A stretch of DNA of 7,311 nt from an uncultured Verrucomicrobia subdivision 3 bacterium (GTDB lineage: Bacteria; Verrucomicrobiota; Verrucomicrobiae; Limisphaerales; CAMLLE01), in the NCBI GenBank assembly GCA_946480555.1, contig CAMLLE010000142.1, positions 1-7,311 on the forward strand. Reading direction: 5' to 3'. Shown piece after piece: positions 1 through 6,952 of the stretch. The notes under the pieces are model-generated. The model did no database searches, was not told the DNA's origin, and saw only the letters and a list, made by a program, of their open reading frames with translations. Both the position numbers and the translations under genes were made by a program. Each line of letters begins with the position of its first letter. Position 1 is the stretch's first letter.

Positions 1-3000
1 CTCGGCCAGCTCTTCGATCGAGTAAATGTCGTGATGCGGAGGAGGCGAAATGAGCCCGACGCCGGCAGTGGTGCCGCGGGTTTTCGCGATTTCCGGAAAC
101 ACCTTCTTGCCGGGCAATTCGCCGCCTTCGCCGGGCTTCGCGCCCTGGGCCATCTTGATCTGCAGCTCGCGGGCGTTGACAAGATAATGGCTCGTCACAC
201 CGAAGCGGCCCGATGCGACCTGCTTGATCGCGGAGTTCTTCGAATCACCCTTCTCGTTCGTCCAAGTGAAACGTTCCGGATCTTCGCCGCCTTCGCCGGT
301 GTTCGATTTGCCGCCGAGACGGTTCATCGCAATCGCCAAAGCTTCGTGCGCTTCCTTCGAGATCGAGCCATAGCTCATCGCGCCGGTCTTGAAGCGTTTC
401 ACGATCGAATCGACGGATTCGACTTCTTCGATCGGCAGCGGCTTCTCAGCCCACTTGAAGTCGAGCAAACCGCGCAGAGTGCAAAGGTTCTTGGACTGGT
501 TGTTCACCAGCTCCGAGTATTCCTTGAATATCTTGTAGCTGCCGAGGCGCGTGCCAATCTGCAGCTTGTGAATCGTCTGCGGATTGAACAGGTGATACTC
601 GCCGTTGTCGCGCCATTGGTACTGACCGCCGGCTTCGAGTTCGCCATTCACTTCGCGGTCTGGGAACGCGTGGCGATGACGGGTGATCGCCTCTTCGGCA
701 ATCACATCGAGCCCGACACCCTGAATGCGCGAAGGCGTCCAGGTGAAATACTTGTCCACCACATCGCTGTTCAGGCCGACCGCTTCAAAGATCTGCGCGC
801 CACGATAGCTTTGAATCGTGGAGATGCCCATCTTGGCCATCGTCTTCACGACGCCTTTGATCGCGGCTTTAATGTATTTTTTCACCGCGGTCTTGTGGTC
901 GGTGTTGACCAGCAAACCTTCGGCGATCAGGTCGTCGATGGTGTCGTAAGCGAGATAAGGATTGATCGCGCTCGCACCGTAACCGATCAGCAATGCGAAG
1001 TGATGCACTTCGCGCGGCTCGCCCGATTCGAGAACCAGGCCGCAGCGTGAGCGTGTGCCTTCGCGGATCAAATGATGATGCAGGCCGGCAACTGCGAGCA
1101 GCGCCGGGATCGGAGCCATTTCGCGCGAAATGCCGCGATCGGAAAGAATCAGAATCGTCGCGCCGTCTTTGATCGCTTTGTCGGCGGCTTCGAACAGTGC
1201 GTTCAGCGCTGCTTCGAGATTCTGTGCGGGAGAGCACGCGTCTCGCGTGCTCTGCGAGGCGTCTCGCCGAGCAGCTTCGGTGGAATTTTGTGCGGAAGAT
1301 GTTTCCGGCGCGACGCCGGAAACGGCACGCGAGACGCGTGCGCTCCCCACATTGAACAAGATCGGCAGCGTCGCCGCTTTGAATCCGGGACGATCCACGT
1401 GACGCAGCTTCTCGAGCTCTTCGTCCGTGAGCAGCGGGTGTTCGAGCTTAATCAACGCGCAGCTTTCCGGCGTCGGCTTCAGCAAACCGCCGCGCGCGCC
1501 AACCATCGTCTCGGTCGAGGTGATGATCTCTTCACGGATCGGATCGATCGGCGGATTGGTCACCTGCGCGAACAGCTGTTTGAAATAGTTGTAGAGCAGC
1601 TGCGGCTTGTTCGAGAGAACGGCCAGCGGCGTATCGGTGCCCATTGAACCAAGCGGCTGCACGCCGTCGTTCGCCATCGGTCCGACAATGAAACGCAAGT
1701 CTTCGAACGTGTACCCAAAACACTGCTGGCGCTGGAGAATCTTGCGATGCTCCGGCTGCGTCTCGATGTTCGGCTCCGGCAGGTTTTCGAGAAGGACGTG
1801 ATGCTCATCCAGCCACTTCTGGTAAGGATGCGCGCTCGCGTATTTCTTCTTCAGCTCTTCGTCAGCGACGATGCGGCCTTCGATCGTGTCCACGAGGAAC
1901 ATGCGGCCGGGCTGCAGGCGGCCCTTGGTCGCCACGCGTTCCGGAGCGATCGGCAGCACGCCGGCTTCCGATGCCATGATGACAAGATCGTCCTTTGTGA
2001 CGTAATAACGCGACGGACGCAGACCGTTACGGTCAAGGCAAGCGCCGATGCGGAAACCGTCCGTGAACGCGACCGAAGCCGGTCCGTCCCACGGTTCCAT
2101 GAGGCACGAATGATATTCGTAGAACGCGCGCCGTGCGGGATCCATGGTCTCGTGGTTTTCCCACGGCTCAGGAATCATCATCATCATCGCGTGCGGCAAT
2201 TCGCGGCCTGCCATGACGAGAAGTTCCACCGCATTGTCGAACATGGCAGAGTCGCTGCCGTCGGTGTTGACGACGGGCAGAAGTTTCTTGATGTCCGGTC
2301 CGAAGAGTTCGGAGACGAAATTGGACTGCGCGGCGTGCATCCAGTTGATGTTGCCGCGGAGCGTGTTGATTTCGCCGTTGTGCGCGATGTAGCGATACGG
2401 ATGCGAACGATCCCAGCTCGGGAAAGTGTTCGTCGAAAAGCGCGAATGAACCAGCGCCAGCGCGGTGGTCATCTCCGGATTTCGCAGGTCAGGGAAGTAT
2501 TTACCGACCTGCTCCGGCATCAGCATGCCTTTGTAGATCGCGGTCTTGGACGACAGGCTGGAAACGTAAAACCACTTTCCGCCGGCTATTTTCGCGCCGT
2601 TGCCATAGCGGATGCGCTGTTCGGCGACCTTGCGGATGACGTAAAGCTTGCGCTCGAATGCAGCGTTGTCCTTCAACGCCGGATTGCGTCCGATGAACAC
2701 CTGCATCATGTGCGGCTCGGCGGCCTTCGCAGTGTTGCCGAGCGAGGAGTTGTCCGTCGGGATGTCGCGCCAGCCGAGCAGCATCTGGCTTTCTTCGCCG
2801 ATGATCTTGGCGACTTCAGCCTTCACCGCTTCGCGTTCCGCCGAGTTCTTCGGCATGAAAAGCATTCCGAGCCCGTACTGGCCGAATGCCGGAAGTTTGA
2901 AACCGAGCTTTTCCGTTTCCTTGGAGAGAAACTCGTGCGGCAGCTGCATCAGGATGCCCGCGCCGTCGCCGGTGTTCACTTCACAGCCGCAGGCGCCGCG

Positions 3001-3195
3001 ATGGTCGAGATTCACCAGGATCTGGAGCGCGTCGGTGACGATCTGATGGGACTTCTTGCCTTTGATGTGGACGATGAAGCCGACGCCGCACGCGTCATGC
3101 TCGAACTGTGGATCGTAAAGACCCTGCTTTTTCGGCGGCCCGAGTAGAACCGGCTGGTCGCTGTTATGGCCCGCAATGTTGCTGCTCATCGTCAT
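1..3195 (-). CDS. gltB: Glutamate synthase (GOGAT) large subunit, 3' end beyond the window
   Basis: This is the large chain of glutamate synthase, a cytoplasmic enzyme that hydrolyses glutamine and transfers the ammonia to 2-oxoglutarate to make glutamate. About 1065 codons are visible, against roughly 1500 for the family. In order they hold: a short leader ending before Cys36 in HDACGVGF, the expected N-terminal nucleophile after propeptide removal; a class II glutamine amidotransferase domain with HSRFSTNT (about 250-257), NGEIN (273-277) and [12 protein letters not shown]; the central domain with ILSDRG and [12 protein letters not shown]; and the start of the FMN-binding barrel with GAMSYGSIS (about 938-946) and [10 protein letters not shown]. 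The 3Fe-4S cysteines and the C-terminal beta-helix lie outside. Two in-frame ATGs, at 3195 and 3189, are possible. I chose 3195 because a weak AGAAG lies 12 bases upstream. An in-frame stop occurs further up. A palindromic element adds about 39 residues near 618-656. The partner gltD is not visible. Confidence 0.97.
1211..1295. repeat. Imperfect direct repeat pair at one edge of the gltB insert
   Basis: Two related segments, 1211-1229 and 1274-1295, share GCTTCG at one end and GTGCGG at the other, with a similar AT-containing middle. They differ in length by one codon. The first is ordinary gltB sequence encoding AQNLEAA; the second lies inside the insert and encodes AQNSTEAA. The pair could be a target-site duplication or a slipped duplication made when part of the element arrived. 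It could also be chance similarity, since the match is imperfect. Confidence 0.4.
1228..1348 (-). repeat. Nested palindromic repeat element inserted in frame within gltB
   Basis: About 121 bp inside gltB are built from palindromes. The ends form an inverted repeat of about 23 bp: 1228-1250 matches the reverse complement of the 1325-1348 end almost perfectly, and each end is itself a hairpin. The arms are AGAGCACGCG/CGCGTGCTCT at 1231-1240 and 1244-1253 (10 bp, 3-base loop), and GCACGCG/CGCGTGC at 1325-1331 and 1335-1341. A central hairpin has perfect 10-bp arms GTTTCCGGCG/CGCCGGAAAC at 1301-1310 and 1314-1323. A smaller one, GGCG/CGCC, spans 1258-1268. The core CGCGTCTCGCG occurs at 1237-1247, inverted at 1328-1338, and as a variant at 1258-1268. 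In the gltB frame it encodes about residues 618-656, with ARVSRA near one end and STRDACSP near the other. Conserved gltB sequence (LPILFNV before, [15 protein letters not shown] after) flanks it. A mobile or dispersed origin is inferred; no transposase is present. Confidence 0.8.
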
Positions 3196-3213
3196 TATCG
3201 AATTATTCTTCTG

Positions 3214-3229
3214 GCTCAGAAAACTGAGC
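3214..3229 (-). promoter_or_regulatory. Stem-loop in the gltB leader
   Basis: A perfect 6-bp inverted repeat, GCTCAG (3214-3219) and CTGAGC (3224-3229), encloses four bases. It lies between the putative -10 hexamer and the gltB start codon, so it would fall in the 5' untranslated leader. On the minus strand no T-run follows it, so it does not look like an attenuator terminator. It may be a regulator site or an mRNA structure; the role is unknown. Confidence 0.35.
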
Positions 3230-3236
3230 AAAAATT

Positions 3237-3425: not shown

Positions 3426-5795
3426 GTGAATTTGAGCGACGAACAGCGGAAGACCCTGGCCCTGGCCATCGGACTCGCCCTGCTGACATTGGCGGTGTAT
3501 GCGCGCGTGGCGACCTTCGACTTCATCAACTTCGATGATCCGATGTATGTTTCCGCGAATTCCCTGGTGCAGGAGGGCCTCACTTGGGATGGCATCATAT
3601 GGGCACTCCAGTTCCAGGTGGCGAACTGGCATCCGCTCACCTGGTTTTCGCACATGCTCGATTGTGAGTTATTCGGCGTGCGGCCGGGATGGCATCACCT
3701 GGTAAACGTCCTCTTCCACTGCCTGAACTCATCGCTGCTGTTTGTGCTGCTCCAGCGTCTCACGCAGGCAACCTGGCGGAGCCTGATTGTCGCGGCTTTG
3801 TTTGCCTTGCATCCGGCGCATGTTGAATCGGTCGCCTGGATTTCCGAACGCAAGGACGTGCTCAGCACGTTTTTCGGAATTCTATCGATGATTTCCTACG
3901 TGAACTGGGTTCAACGGAAAACCACACGCCTGCCAGTGGCCGGGCTGGTTCTTTTTGCGCTCAGCCTGCTGGCGAAACCCATGCTGGTGACCATGCCTTT
4001 TCTACTGCTGCTGATTGACCTCTGGCCAATGCAGCGCTTGGAAAATCGCGGCTGGCGGACGGTGCTGGAGAAATCTTTCTGGAAACTTGTCGTCGAAAAG
4101 GCGCCGTGGTTTGCGCTGACGATTGGAATGAGCATCATCGCTTTCATCGCGCAGAAAGAAGGCGGCGCCGTGATGAAGACGGAGGCCCTTTCGATCTTTG
4201 TGCGCGCCGCAAATGCCGTCACGGCGTACGCGGCTTACCTCGGAAAACTGTTCTGGCCCACCAAGCTCGCGCTCTATTATCCACTGCCGCGGGTTCGGCT
4301 GATTGACGTGACGCTGATTTCGGCGGCGGTGTTCCTCACGTTGTGGTTTCTCGCGATCCGATGGGCGAAATCCCGTCCGTCGTTCAGCCTCGGCTGGTTC
4401 TGGTATTTTGGCACGCTGGTTCCAGTGATCGGGCTGGTCCAGGTCGGCGGCCAGGCGATGGCGGATCGTTATACCTACATCCCGTCCATTGGCGTGTTCA
4501 TCGCCGTAATCTGGCTGGCGCACGAGATCCTGGTCCGCTTCAAAGCGCAGGGAACCGTGGTTTTCAGCGTGAGCGCCAGCGTCGTCCTGGCCTGCGCCTG
4601 GCTGACGTCGGTTCAACTGGGTCACTGGCAAAACAGCGCCACGATCTTCAGCCATACGCTGCGAGTGACGGAAAACAATCCCGTCGCGGCGAATCTGCTG
4701 GCGGCAGCCTACACGGAGATGGGCCGCAACGAAGATGCGCTGAAGCTGAATCTCGTTTCGGTTGAGCTGGCGCCCGGCGAGCCCCTGTTTCTGGCCAACA
4801 CCGGCGAACTGTTGTTGAAGATGGATCGCCGCGAAGAAGGTTTGAAATTCCTGAATCAGGCGGCGGCCTTCGGCACGAACGACGCGAAGATCCAGAATCG
4901 CTTCGGGCAGGCGGTGGCGGAACACGGTGAAACAAACGCAGCGCTCCAGGCCTTTCACCGGGCCATTCAGCTCGATCCAAAATCAGCATCCGGTTACTGC
5001 AATCTCGGCGGCATGCTGATCTCCCTTGGCCAGGTGGATGCGGCCATCACAAACATTCAACAGGCGCTCAAGCTGGATCACCGCTACATGGAAGCCTACA
5101 ACAATCTCGGTGCCGCCTACACGAAACAGCAGAAGCATGAGGAGGCGGTGAAGCAATACCGGCACGCGCTGAAGTTTAATCCCACCAACGCCGTTACCCT
5201 GTTCAATCTCGGTTCCGCGCTGGACAAACTCGGAAAAACGCAGGAAGCCATGATCCGGCTGGACGCGGCCCTCCAAAGCGATCCCAAACACACGGAAGCG
5301 CGTTTCACCCTGGCCCGCCGGCTGTTCACCCAGGGCGAGTTGAAGTCCGCACACGCCCATTTGATGGAGGTTCTTCGGATCAGACCCGATCATGCGAACG
5401 CGCGCCTGTTCCTCGGTCTGACGCAGTTCGAAAGTGGAGACGAAGAGACGGCAATTCAGAATCTGAAGGAGGCCGTCAATGTGCAGCCTCGTTCGGTCGA
5501 AGCCCATAACGCGCTCGCCTGGAGCCTGGCGACCGCGAAAAAACCGGAGTTGCGCGACGGCCAGACCGCGGTGCTGCTCGCCGAAAAGGCCGCCGCACTG
5601 ACGCAATGGAATCGCCCCGCGGTTCTACACACGCTGGCGGCAAGTTACGCAGCGGCGGGACGATTCTCCGATGCAGCCCGCGTGGCGGAACAGGCGCTGG
5701 CACTCGCCAATGCCGGGCAGCAAAAACAACTCGCGCGCCAGTTGGAACTGGCGCTGGAGTCCTACCGCGCAGGCAAAGCACTGGACCGGCCGTGA
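3426..5795 (+). CDS. Polytopic membrane protein with C-terminal TPR array, GT-C/TMTC-like
   Basis: A 789-residue protein with two halves. Residues 1 to about 400 hold around ten hydrophobic membrane segments. They also carry conserved-looking loops: NFDDPMYV (35-42, with the Asp pair 37-38), NWHPLTWFSHMLDCELFG (67-84), HPAHVESVAWISERKD (129-144) and ADRYTYIPSIG (346-356). This layout is typical of bacterial TPR-containing GT-C-fold proteins related to eukaryotic TMTC O-mannosyltransferases, where an acidic pair in the first external loop serves catalysis. Residues about 418-765 form roughly ten TPR-like repeats (for example near 523, 557 and 589) ending in a helical tail, probably facing the periplasm. 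Transfer of a lipid-linked sugar onto a protein is plausible, but substrate and activity are unknown. The GTG start is forced by an in-frame TAG at 3414, and no clear ribosome binding site is seen. It is divergent from gltB. The next gene is 92 bp downstream, so co-transcription is possible. Confidence 0.93.
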   Translation: MNLSDEQRKTLALAIGLALLTLAVYARVATFDFINFDDPMYVSANSLVQEGLTWDGIIWALQFQVANWHPLTWFSHMLDCELFGVRPGWHHLVNVLFHCLNSSLLFVLLQRLTQATWRSLIVAALFALHPAHVESVAWISERKDVLSTFFGILSMISYVNWVQRKTTRLPVAGLVLFALSLLAKPMLVTMPFLLLLIDLWPMQRLENRGWRTVLEKSFWKLVVEKAPWFALTIGMSIIAFIAQKEGGAVMKTEALSIFVRAANAVTAYAAYLGKLFWPTKLALYYPLPRVRLIDVTLISAAVFLTLWFLAIRWAKSRPSFSLGWFWYFGTLVPVIGLVQVGGQAMADRYTYIPSIGVFIAVIWLAHEILVRFKAQGTVVFSVSASVVLACAWLTSVQLGHWQNSATIFSHTLRVTENNPVAANLLAAAYTEMGRNEDALKLNLVSVELAPGEPLFLANTGELLLKMDRREEGLKFLNQAAAFGTNDAKIQNRFGQAVAEHGETNAALQAFHRAIQLDPKSASGYCNLGGMLISLGQVDAAITNIQQALKLDHRYMEAYNNLGAAYTKQQKHEEAVKQYRHALKFNPTNAVTLFNLGSALDKLGKTQEAMIRLDAALQSDPKHTEARFTLARRLFTQGELKSAHAHLMEVLRIRPDHANARLFLGLTQFESGDEETAIQNLKEAVNVQPRSVEAHNALAWSLATAKKPELRDGQTAVLLAEKAAALTQWNRPAVLHTLAASYAAAGRFSDAARVAEQALALANAGQQKQLARQLELALESYRAGKALDRP

Positions 5796-5887: not shown

Positions 5888-6952
5888 GTGTTCAGGTTGG
5901 ATCGTATCGCCTTCTGTTGTGCCGGCATTCTCGCCGGGTGTTCTTCTGTTCCCGAGCACGCGGATTACGACCACGCCGAACCTCCATTGACGCAGGAACA
6001 CGTCACGGAACTGCCCGGCGTGTTTCGGCCCGTAGAACAAGGCGTCATTCTGCCCACCGCCCCAACTAATGTGCCGGTTGCCTGGGTTTCGTTTCCAGAT
6101 TGGGTCGATCAACACCAGCTGGGGACGCTCACCCGCATTGGCACGAGTTCCAATTCCATTTATCAACTCGACACAAGCAACGGCCAGCTCGAACTGCGGT
6201 CCAACAGCCGCGTCGCAAAATGGGAAGGCGCCGAGGTTCATCTTGGATTTGGCAGCCGGGTTGTGAACGACATTCCACTGGTCCATCCGCTCGATCTGGA
6301 AAAGAACATCCTCCCGCTGCTCACTCCAACCACGTTGCCAGCGCCCGGTCAGCGCGTCGTCGTCATCGACCCGGGACATGGCGGCGGCAATGGCGGGACG
6401 AAGAGCGTCCTGAACGGCGCGAACGAGAAAGAATTTACGCTGGATTGGGCACTGCGCTTACGGCCTTTGTTGGAAGCGAACCAGTGGCAGGTGCATTTGA
6501 CTCGGACGAACGACAGCGAAGTTCCCTTGTCGGACCGCGTCGCACTGGCGGAACGCTGCCGCGCGGATCTGTTCATCAGTTTGCACTTCAATTCAGCCGC
6601 CCCAAGGCGCGATCAGAACGGCGTGGAGACTTTCTGCCTCACGCCCGTCGGCATGAAGTCCACGCTGACGCGCGAATACGAGGACAATCCCGCCGCGGAG
6701 TTTGCAAACAACCGATTCGACTCCGAAAACCTCCAATACGCCATGCGCTTGCACCGCGCGTTGCTGAAGGAGTGCGATTTTGCCGATCGCGGCGTGCGGC
6801 GGGCGCGGTTTCTAGGCGTTCTCCGCGGACAAAACCGGCCGGCCGTGCTGCTGGAAGCAGGCTTCCTTTCAAACCCGAACGACGCCGCGCAGATCGCGAA
6901 TCCAGCCTTTCGCCAAAGACTCGCCGAAGCTGTCGCGCGCGCACTGCAATGA
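5888..6952 (+). CDS. Lipoprotein N-acetylmuramoyl-L-alanine amidase (Amidase_3 family)
   Basis: A 354-residue zinc amidase predicted to cut the amide bond between N-acetylmuramic acid and L-alanine in peptidoglycan, acting in cell separation or wall turnover. The N-terminus is a lipoprotein signal peptide: a short hydrophobic stretch ends in the lipobox LAGC, with Cys18 as the lipidation site. Residues about 65-145 (LELRSNSRVAKWEGAEVHLG, then DLEKNILPLL) resemble the copper-amine-oxidase-like N-terminal domain often joined to such hydrolases. The catalytic domain (about 156-353) has IDPGHGG (zinc ligand His164), GANEKEF (Glu180 likely ligand), SLHFN (His233) and LLEAGFLSN (catalytic Glu323), so all key residues are present. 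GTG at 5888 is the first start codon after an in-frame TGA; TTG at 5897 would also keep the signal peptide. No clear Shine-Dalgarno site. The stop overlaps the next gene's start by four bases, implying a shared transcript. Confidence 0.94.
   Translation: MFRLDRIAFCCAGILAGCSSVPEHADYDHAEPPLTQEHVTELPGVFRPVEQGVILPTAPTNVPVAWVSFPDWVDQHQLGTLTRIGTSSNSIYQLDTSNGQLELRSNSRVAKWEGAEVHLGFGSRVVNDIPLVHPLDLEKNILPLLTPTTLPAPGQRVVVIDPGHGGGNGGTKSVLNGANEKEFTLDWALRLRPLLEANQWQVHLTRTNDSEVPLSDRVALAERCRADLFISLHFNSAAPRRDQNGVETFCLTPVGMKSTLTREYEDNPAAEFANNRFDSENLQYAMRLHRALLKECDFADRGVRRARFLGVLRGQNRPAVLLEAGFLSNPNDAAQIANPAFRQRLAEAVARALQ

Follow-up and report, generated by a model that had tools for sequence, protein, structure and literature searches.

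A REPIN-like element in frame in a verrucomicrobial gltB gene and its apparent link to RAYT transposases nested in host enzymes

REPINs are miniature units formed by two inverted REP-like hairpins, which occur in many copies and are linked to RAYTs, enzymes with an HUH motif and a catalytic tyrosine. Inteins with homing endonucleases carry a DNA-cutting mobile domain placed in frame in conserved proteins. The REPIN/RAYT system, the subject of PMC3116915, is among the nearest known systems to the element described here, with which it shares paired inverted hairpin ends, a linked RAYT and many copies. In the passages of Di Nocera et al. 2013 (PMC3733652) that deal with intragenic repeats, GTAG and CGTC REPs inside genes are reported to encode 20-30 residues (43-82 in clusters), intragenic GTAG REPs being most numerous in the verrucomicrobium Opitutus terrae and present also in uvrA genes, and intragenic REPs are noted in tRNA synthetase genes of other species. 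The same passages mention some RAYT-like genes (TIRtrons/TIRYTs) with double-palindromic terminal repeats, and cite the Rickettsia palindromic elements (RPEs) as palindromic repeats in frame in protein genes, those of R. conorii ending in CGTC. According to the portion that concerns us here of a phylogenomic survey of the transposase family (PMC6006769), a few unexpectedly long proteins were taken for gene fusions or errors of annotation and discarded.

In the present study we have analysed a stretch of 7,311 nucleotides from an uncultured Verrucomicrobia subdivision 3 bacterium, referred to as the window, in which gltB is interrupted by a double-hairpin inverted repeat of 120 nt, that is, exactly 40 codons. 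The features are the following:

1..3231, minus strand: gltB, glutamate synthase large subunit, first 1077 codons (ORF and Pfam), with the 3' end outside the window
1228..1347, minus strand: in-frame REPIN-like element, delimited by arms, folding and family alignment, encoding GltB residues 629-668
1301..1347, minus strand: 5' end of the element in the coding sense, with the tip GGGAGC and then two hairpins
about 1325-1341, minus strand: 5' hairpin GCACGCG-TCT-CGCGTGC
1301-1323, minus strand: 5' hairpin GTTTCCGGCG-TCG-CGCCGGAAAC
1270..1300, minus strand: spacer between the two ends, the place occupied by the RAYT in autonomous relatives
1228..1269, minus strand: 3' end in the coding sense, an inverted copy of the 5' end with two hairpins and the tip CTCTCCC

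The original prediction of an in-frame palindromic element at 1228..1348 of gltB turned out to be real, as judged by the inverted arms, the hairpins and the length of 40 codons; the right boundary is 1347 and moves to 1348 when the minus-strand tip is taken to include its fourth G. The arms (1228-1269 and 1306-1347) are 42 nt each, 81% complementary and separated by a gap of 36 nt, and perfect hairpins are formed by 1231-1240/1244-1253 and 1301-1310/1314-1323. Folding of 1220-1355 gave z values of -9.1 as DNA and -8.1 as RNA when compared in each case with 200 dinucleotide shuffles, none of which was as good. The family alignment gives the layout in the coding sense as the tip GGGAGC, hairpin 1, hairpin 2, the spacer and the mirror image of the whole. 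The insert is open in all three frames of the coding strand, in agreement with the earlier claim that the frame stays open with three frames to choose from; the residues proposed at that time, 618-656, fit a count from an ATG located 12 codons later, and become 629-668 when counted from the TTG start.

The gltB ORF matches the Pfam families GATase_2, Glu_syn_central and Glu_synthase. The expectation that homologues would lack the insert was confirmed by its absence from 80/80 related GltB loci compared, some of which contain extra residues of their own in the same loop, whose length varies, and by chain G of PDB 7mfm (one of five matching solved sequences), in which query residues 627 and 670 align to residues 590 and 591. 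One further GltB, P0002, carries the insert at the same place. The location in a loop, also predicted, is supported by an AlphaFold2 model of GltB (34 sequences, mean pLDDT 63.5), in which residues 631-665, situated between strands 617-627 and the helix 668-688, lack secondary structure and have a pLDDT below 50; the insert is a disordered loop as modelled. Elsewhere in the window, the plus-strand ORF at 3426-5795 looks by eye like a membrane/TPR-like protein and the one at 5888-6952 like an N-acetylmuramoyl-L-alanine amidase-like protein, with nothing unusual in either.

The suspicion, present from the outset, that the insert belongs to a family of coding palindromic repeats dispersed in Verrucomicrobiota was borne out at both the peptide and the DNA level. 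In a search with GltB that was scored on residues 600-680 and admitted only proteins of 0.55-1.75 times the query length, the insert peptide was present in 29 of 96 proteins (local BLAST E <1e-4), namely 15 AlaRS, 9 ThrRS, 2 AddA-type helicases, a ClpB, a methylase and the GltB P0002. A profile of nine inserts matches 20 of the 141 genomes (E up to 0.01) in the class of G002, the genome of locus L002, which is recorded as an uncultured Verrucomicrobia subdivision 3 bacterium. At the DNA level a profile yielded 81 matches, 73 of them unique, in loci of relatives (L111-L179), and this family shows the same double-hairpin ends as the window element. In 16 of the 73 copies the match is partial or without full ends, and 51 near-full copies were used for the tip and phase counts.

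A search of Verrucomicrobiota for copies both within and between genes had been proposed. Among the 73 unique DNA copies of the relatives, 44 lie outside any ORF of >250 aa that extends 60 aa beyond the copy on either side. Pfam scans of ORFs surrounding copies from these and other loci placed 24 copies in frame inside recognised host proteins of unrelated genes:

radical SAM proteins of the CofH/MqnC type: L113, L268
CarB: L115, L173
UbiD: L122
ValRS or other class I synthetase: L117, L133, L265 (twice), L273
MetH: L143, L275
UvrA: L200, L204
PurL-type protein: L201
PriA: L202
ClpB: L267
MmeI-type restriction enzyme: L269
polyketide synthase: L270 (twice)
DUF7133 proteins: L271, L272
DnaE: L274
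squalene-hopene cyclase: L276

The matches in L173 and L202 are partial, and in L269, L271 and L272 the element stands behind the recognised domain, within a long ORF. All 24 copies are read in the phase that gives GSARVSRA, part of them having been selected by that phase. As a check on this bias, 18 genomes were also searched with profiles of both other phases. Among the matches listed, the used phase gave 13 stop-free frames of at least 690 aa, of which 10 were confirmed by Pfam, two RAYT copies included; the second phase gave 0 and the third 2, one being the RecG of G121 and the other an N-terminal extension that is doubtful. The 45 copies not verified as genic have open phases in 21, 31 and 36 cases on one strand and in 23, 22 and 20 on the other; thus, stop codons alone seem not to explain the phase preference.

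Several candidates were rejected as insertions. The element lies outside the recognised domain in L154, L157, L167 and L169, and in L216 it occupies residues 21-72 and precedes the MacB domain; there is no Pfam match or a one-sided match only in L146, L150, L151, L159, L172, L125, L137, L152, L207 and L266, and a short half match in an alpha-2-macroglobulin-like protein in L203. The scans left out L205, L206, L217 and L219 (of 20 regions) together with the 730-aa antisense frame of L144.

In relatives, ends of this family flank a RAYT in L158 (RecG, genome G111) and L119 (AlaRS, genome G037), and the ThrRS P0069 shows a RAYT between the same ends at the protein level. The clade to which these RAYTs belong has the HUH motif and the catalytic tyrosine of the Y1 family, H63-V-H65 and Y133 being invariant in 10/10 members; its closest solved relative is TnpA-REP (PDB 4er8, E 6e-6), and Pfam Y1_Tnp is reported in 7 of the 12 clade ORFs scanned (L180-L182, L185 and L258-L260) and not in L183, L184, L186, L187 and L188. 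The end profile is found on both sides of 17/44 RAYT copies, some of the matches being weak, and not on both sides in 27/44; upstream it occurs in 21 of the 44 copies (18 in the usual phase and 3, weak, in a different one), and the 22 copies that have it downstream divide by phase into 14, 4 and 4. Several RAYTs of the clade visibly have different end sequences. Other end peptides (GSAGCQPAVSGSLPD, GGTGYQPV, GEHTRPRV) can be seen in L245, L235, L248, L243, L223 and L181, which suggests several coding end families. L126 was discarded as a cleanly bracketed RAYT, its end-like matches on both sides being in an unexpected order and the end profile giving none at the same gene (L183).

The element in the window resembles a REPIN in its two inverted REP-like palindromes forming one unit (arms and family alignment), in its relatives being dispersed mostly outside genes (44/73) and in the cognate RAYT found between the same ends of L158, L119 and P0069. 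It differs from the REPIN/RAYT system in that copies are in frame within core genes, that every strong RAYT match of the clade is inserted in frame within a host gene, and that each end has two hairpins and a tip that is mostly GGAG, not GTAG. Both tips of the window element read GGGAG from the outside in, and neither the GTAG tip, which is present in 4/51 near-full relatives, nor the CGTC end of the REPs in the cited passages of PMC3733652 was found in it; the tips GGGGAGCG and CGGGAGAG each differ by eye at one position or more from the TIRtron sequence GGGGWSAS. A RAYT within a host ORF is not described in those passages, either for REPs or for TIRtrons. The window element is best regarded as a variant of the REPIN/RAYT system, and the nested RAYT clade is the main surprise.

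A RAYT profile built from nested members was searched in 384 genomes of the class, apparently mostly drafts, with the best 9 candidates per genome scored; the E cut-offs of the RAYT searches, controls included, were 1e-18, 1e-16, 1e-12 and 1e-8. All 44 strong matches (E up to 7.5e-52; 36/384 genomes) lie in stop-free frames of 698-1513 aa, the hosts being AlaRS (22), RecG (13), ThrRS (5) and MetH (4, in three ORFs), and the next RAYT match after this group appears at E 6.5e-25. Two RAYT matches within one host gene were observed in L249 (alaS of G103) and L258 (metH of G346), the first match of L258 being truncated by the contig start. Near Pfam position 263 of AlaRS, the other insertion site in this enzyme, L182 and L187, from two genomes, display short tandem peptide repeats (PSPNVGT-like and THPAGQTPSDSPVG-like) and no RAYT.

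Outside this clade, the more distant RAYTs are frequently, or for the most part, free-standing; in the 384 genomes 47/83 rows are in frames of at least 500 aa and 30/83 in frames of at most 320 aa. Distant RAYTs in frame in large proteins were noticed among L208-L214, L191, L196 and L218, with HsdR (L209, L212), DnaE (L191), ClpB (L196, L213), an Eco57I-type enzyme (L214), a helicase (L211) and a NUDIX protein (L218) as hosts. A control on 294 genomes, drawn from the phylum to which a Planctomycetota genome belongs, gave a best E of 6.7e-40. The frames of its six nearest rows (E 7e-40 to 6e-36) measure 161-632 aa, with four shorter than 300 aa, and 15/83 rows are in stop-free frames of at least 500 aa. 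Such frames contain 0/31 rows in 274 genomes from the class of a Steroidobacteraceae genome and 0/7 in one Verrucomicrobiaceae genome. The short frames of the nearest Planctomycetota relatives indicate that nesting is not general to the wider RAYT group.

A tree of 43 RAYTs, in which four AlaRS rows carried a '?' label, requires 13 changes of host/site label, the minimum being 6. The members of supported sister pairs have different hosts or sites: two alaS sites are occupied in G330 and G002, which share there a 622-bp element, 84% identical and with inverted ends; G264 (ThrRS) pairs with G361 (AlaRS), and G346 (MetH) with G052 (RecG). As sister RAYTs are at different sites, the sequences indicate that the element has moved between sites in the past, and the family may be active at present. 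Element and RAYT tend to occur together, a RAYT being present in 19/35 element-positive and 17/349 element-negative genomes (p 2.5e-13, in a test that ignores kinship), and in 17/33 and 19/351, again ignoring kinship, after removal of G162 and G099, whose listed element matches are at or near the RAYT. No RAYT of the clade was detected in 16 of the 35 element-positive genomes, the copy-rich G108 included.

The gene alaS is generally essential in bacteria. No second intact alaS was seen among the PF01411 matches of the 21/21 genomes with a RAYT in AlaRS, these matches being all consistent with one interrupted gene; those on two contigs in G077 and G294 are read as a gene cut by contig ends. The essentiality of alaS and the lack of a second intact copy suggest that the RAYT-interrupted AlaRS probably works. 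Near the start of the RAYT domain, GTG or TTG is found in 25/43 cases, ATG in 2/43 and none of these in 16/43, with a Shine-Dalgarno-like motif before the candidate start in 4/43. The GTG, TTG and ATG codons leave room for internal translation starts in nested RAYTs; the 16/43 lacking such a codon and the 4/43 with the motif favour translation as part of the host protein, short of proof. A structure model of a ThrRS-RAYT protein, with a mean pLDDT of 42.6, was set aside.

Thus, we propose, with a probability of roughly 0.83, that the insert is a REPIN-like miniature element moved by a RAYT and translated as a linker of GltB, its ends being compatible with coding since the autonomous version is nested in important genes. 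Owing to what is established for IS200/IS605-type transposases, we infer that the RAYT would move the element, with its two inverted double-hairpin ends, as single-stranded DNA. The element would have landed in a loop of the central domain of gltB, in a stop-free phase and with a length divisible by three, and would be translated into a hydrophilic disordered linker of 40 residues which the enzyme tolerates. The autonomous version, comprising the ends and the RAYT, would stay in frame in AlaRS, RecG, ThrRS and MetH and be expressed within the host protein, and the short copies would inherit coding-compatible ends from it; the ends probably remain translatable because the autonomous element is itself in frame in important genes. 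We lean, with less assurance, to the further view that this RAYT clade has no gene of its own and exists only as an in-frame domain of these four enzymes, where it would be expressed and shielded, and from which it would hop and seed translatable linkers.

The original prediction had likened the insert to the RPEs, and the likeness holds in effect, a palindromic element being in frame in protein genes as in the RPEs cited in PMC3733652. That it belongs with them as an independent family of in-frame palindromes whose mobiliser is unknown is very improbable: the R. conorii RPEs end in CGTC according to the same passages, the window tip is GGGAGC and GTAG occurs in 4/51 relatives, the phylum is a different one, and in relatives the same ends enclose a RAYT, which points to a mobilising transposase. 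Because of this RAYT the REPIN/RAYT system fits better, and a REPIN-like miniature element dependent on a RAYT, not a Rickettsia RPE, is the best reading of the window element. The original prediction had overlooked both the link to a RAYT and the in-frame position of the transposase copies in important genes. The variable length of the GltB loop could suggest an ordinary lineage-specific expansion of non-mobile origin, which is hardly credible given that both the peptide and the DNA of the insert turn up again in unrelated genes and at other places in genomes.

The insert might also be missing from the mature protein through RNA or protein splicing or ribosome skipping, as the interruption of important enzymes and a strong RNA hairpin that draws the ends together would allow. 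We regard this as improbable, since the frame is kept without stops in 44/44 RAYT copies, which skipping would not need, and no intein splicing (Hint) family was among the Pfam matches of the 12 clade ORFs with a RAYT that were scanned. Less remote, albeit still unlikely, is that the nested clade has been domesticated and is useful to the host enzyme or cell, with the short copies as by-products, a reading compatible with the RAYT-moved linker preferred here; the recurrence of host genes and sites and the catalytic residues retained in 10/10 speak for it, and the sporadic presence (36/384 genomes) and the switching of sites by sister copies against it.

Among the best-ranked matches in the open-licence literature we recognised no report of RAYTs nested in AlaRS or RecG. 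Proteins of this kind would belong to the class of long proteins discarded, according to the portion cited above, in PMC6006769, which is of consequence for annotation. If the view of a clade confined to host enzymes is true, its lifestyle would be intein-like without splicing: as in inteins with homing endonucleases, a DNA-cutting mobile domain is in frame in conserved proteins, but the splicing domain was not found, the enzyme is a RAYT and short enzyme-less copies exist. The finding ties in-frame palindromic inserts, known from the Rickettsia RPEs, to a likely mobiliser, and a transposase clade appears to maintain itself inside important enzymes. Furthermore, it makes testable how selfish DNA survives in core genes and whether REP-type elements are a source of new protein segments.
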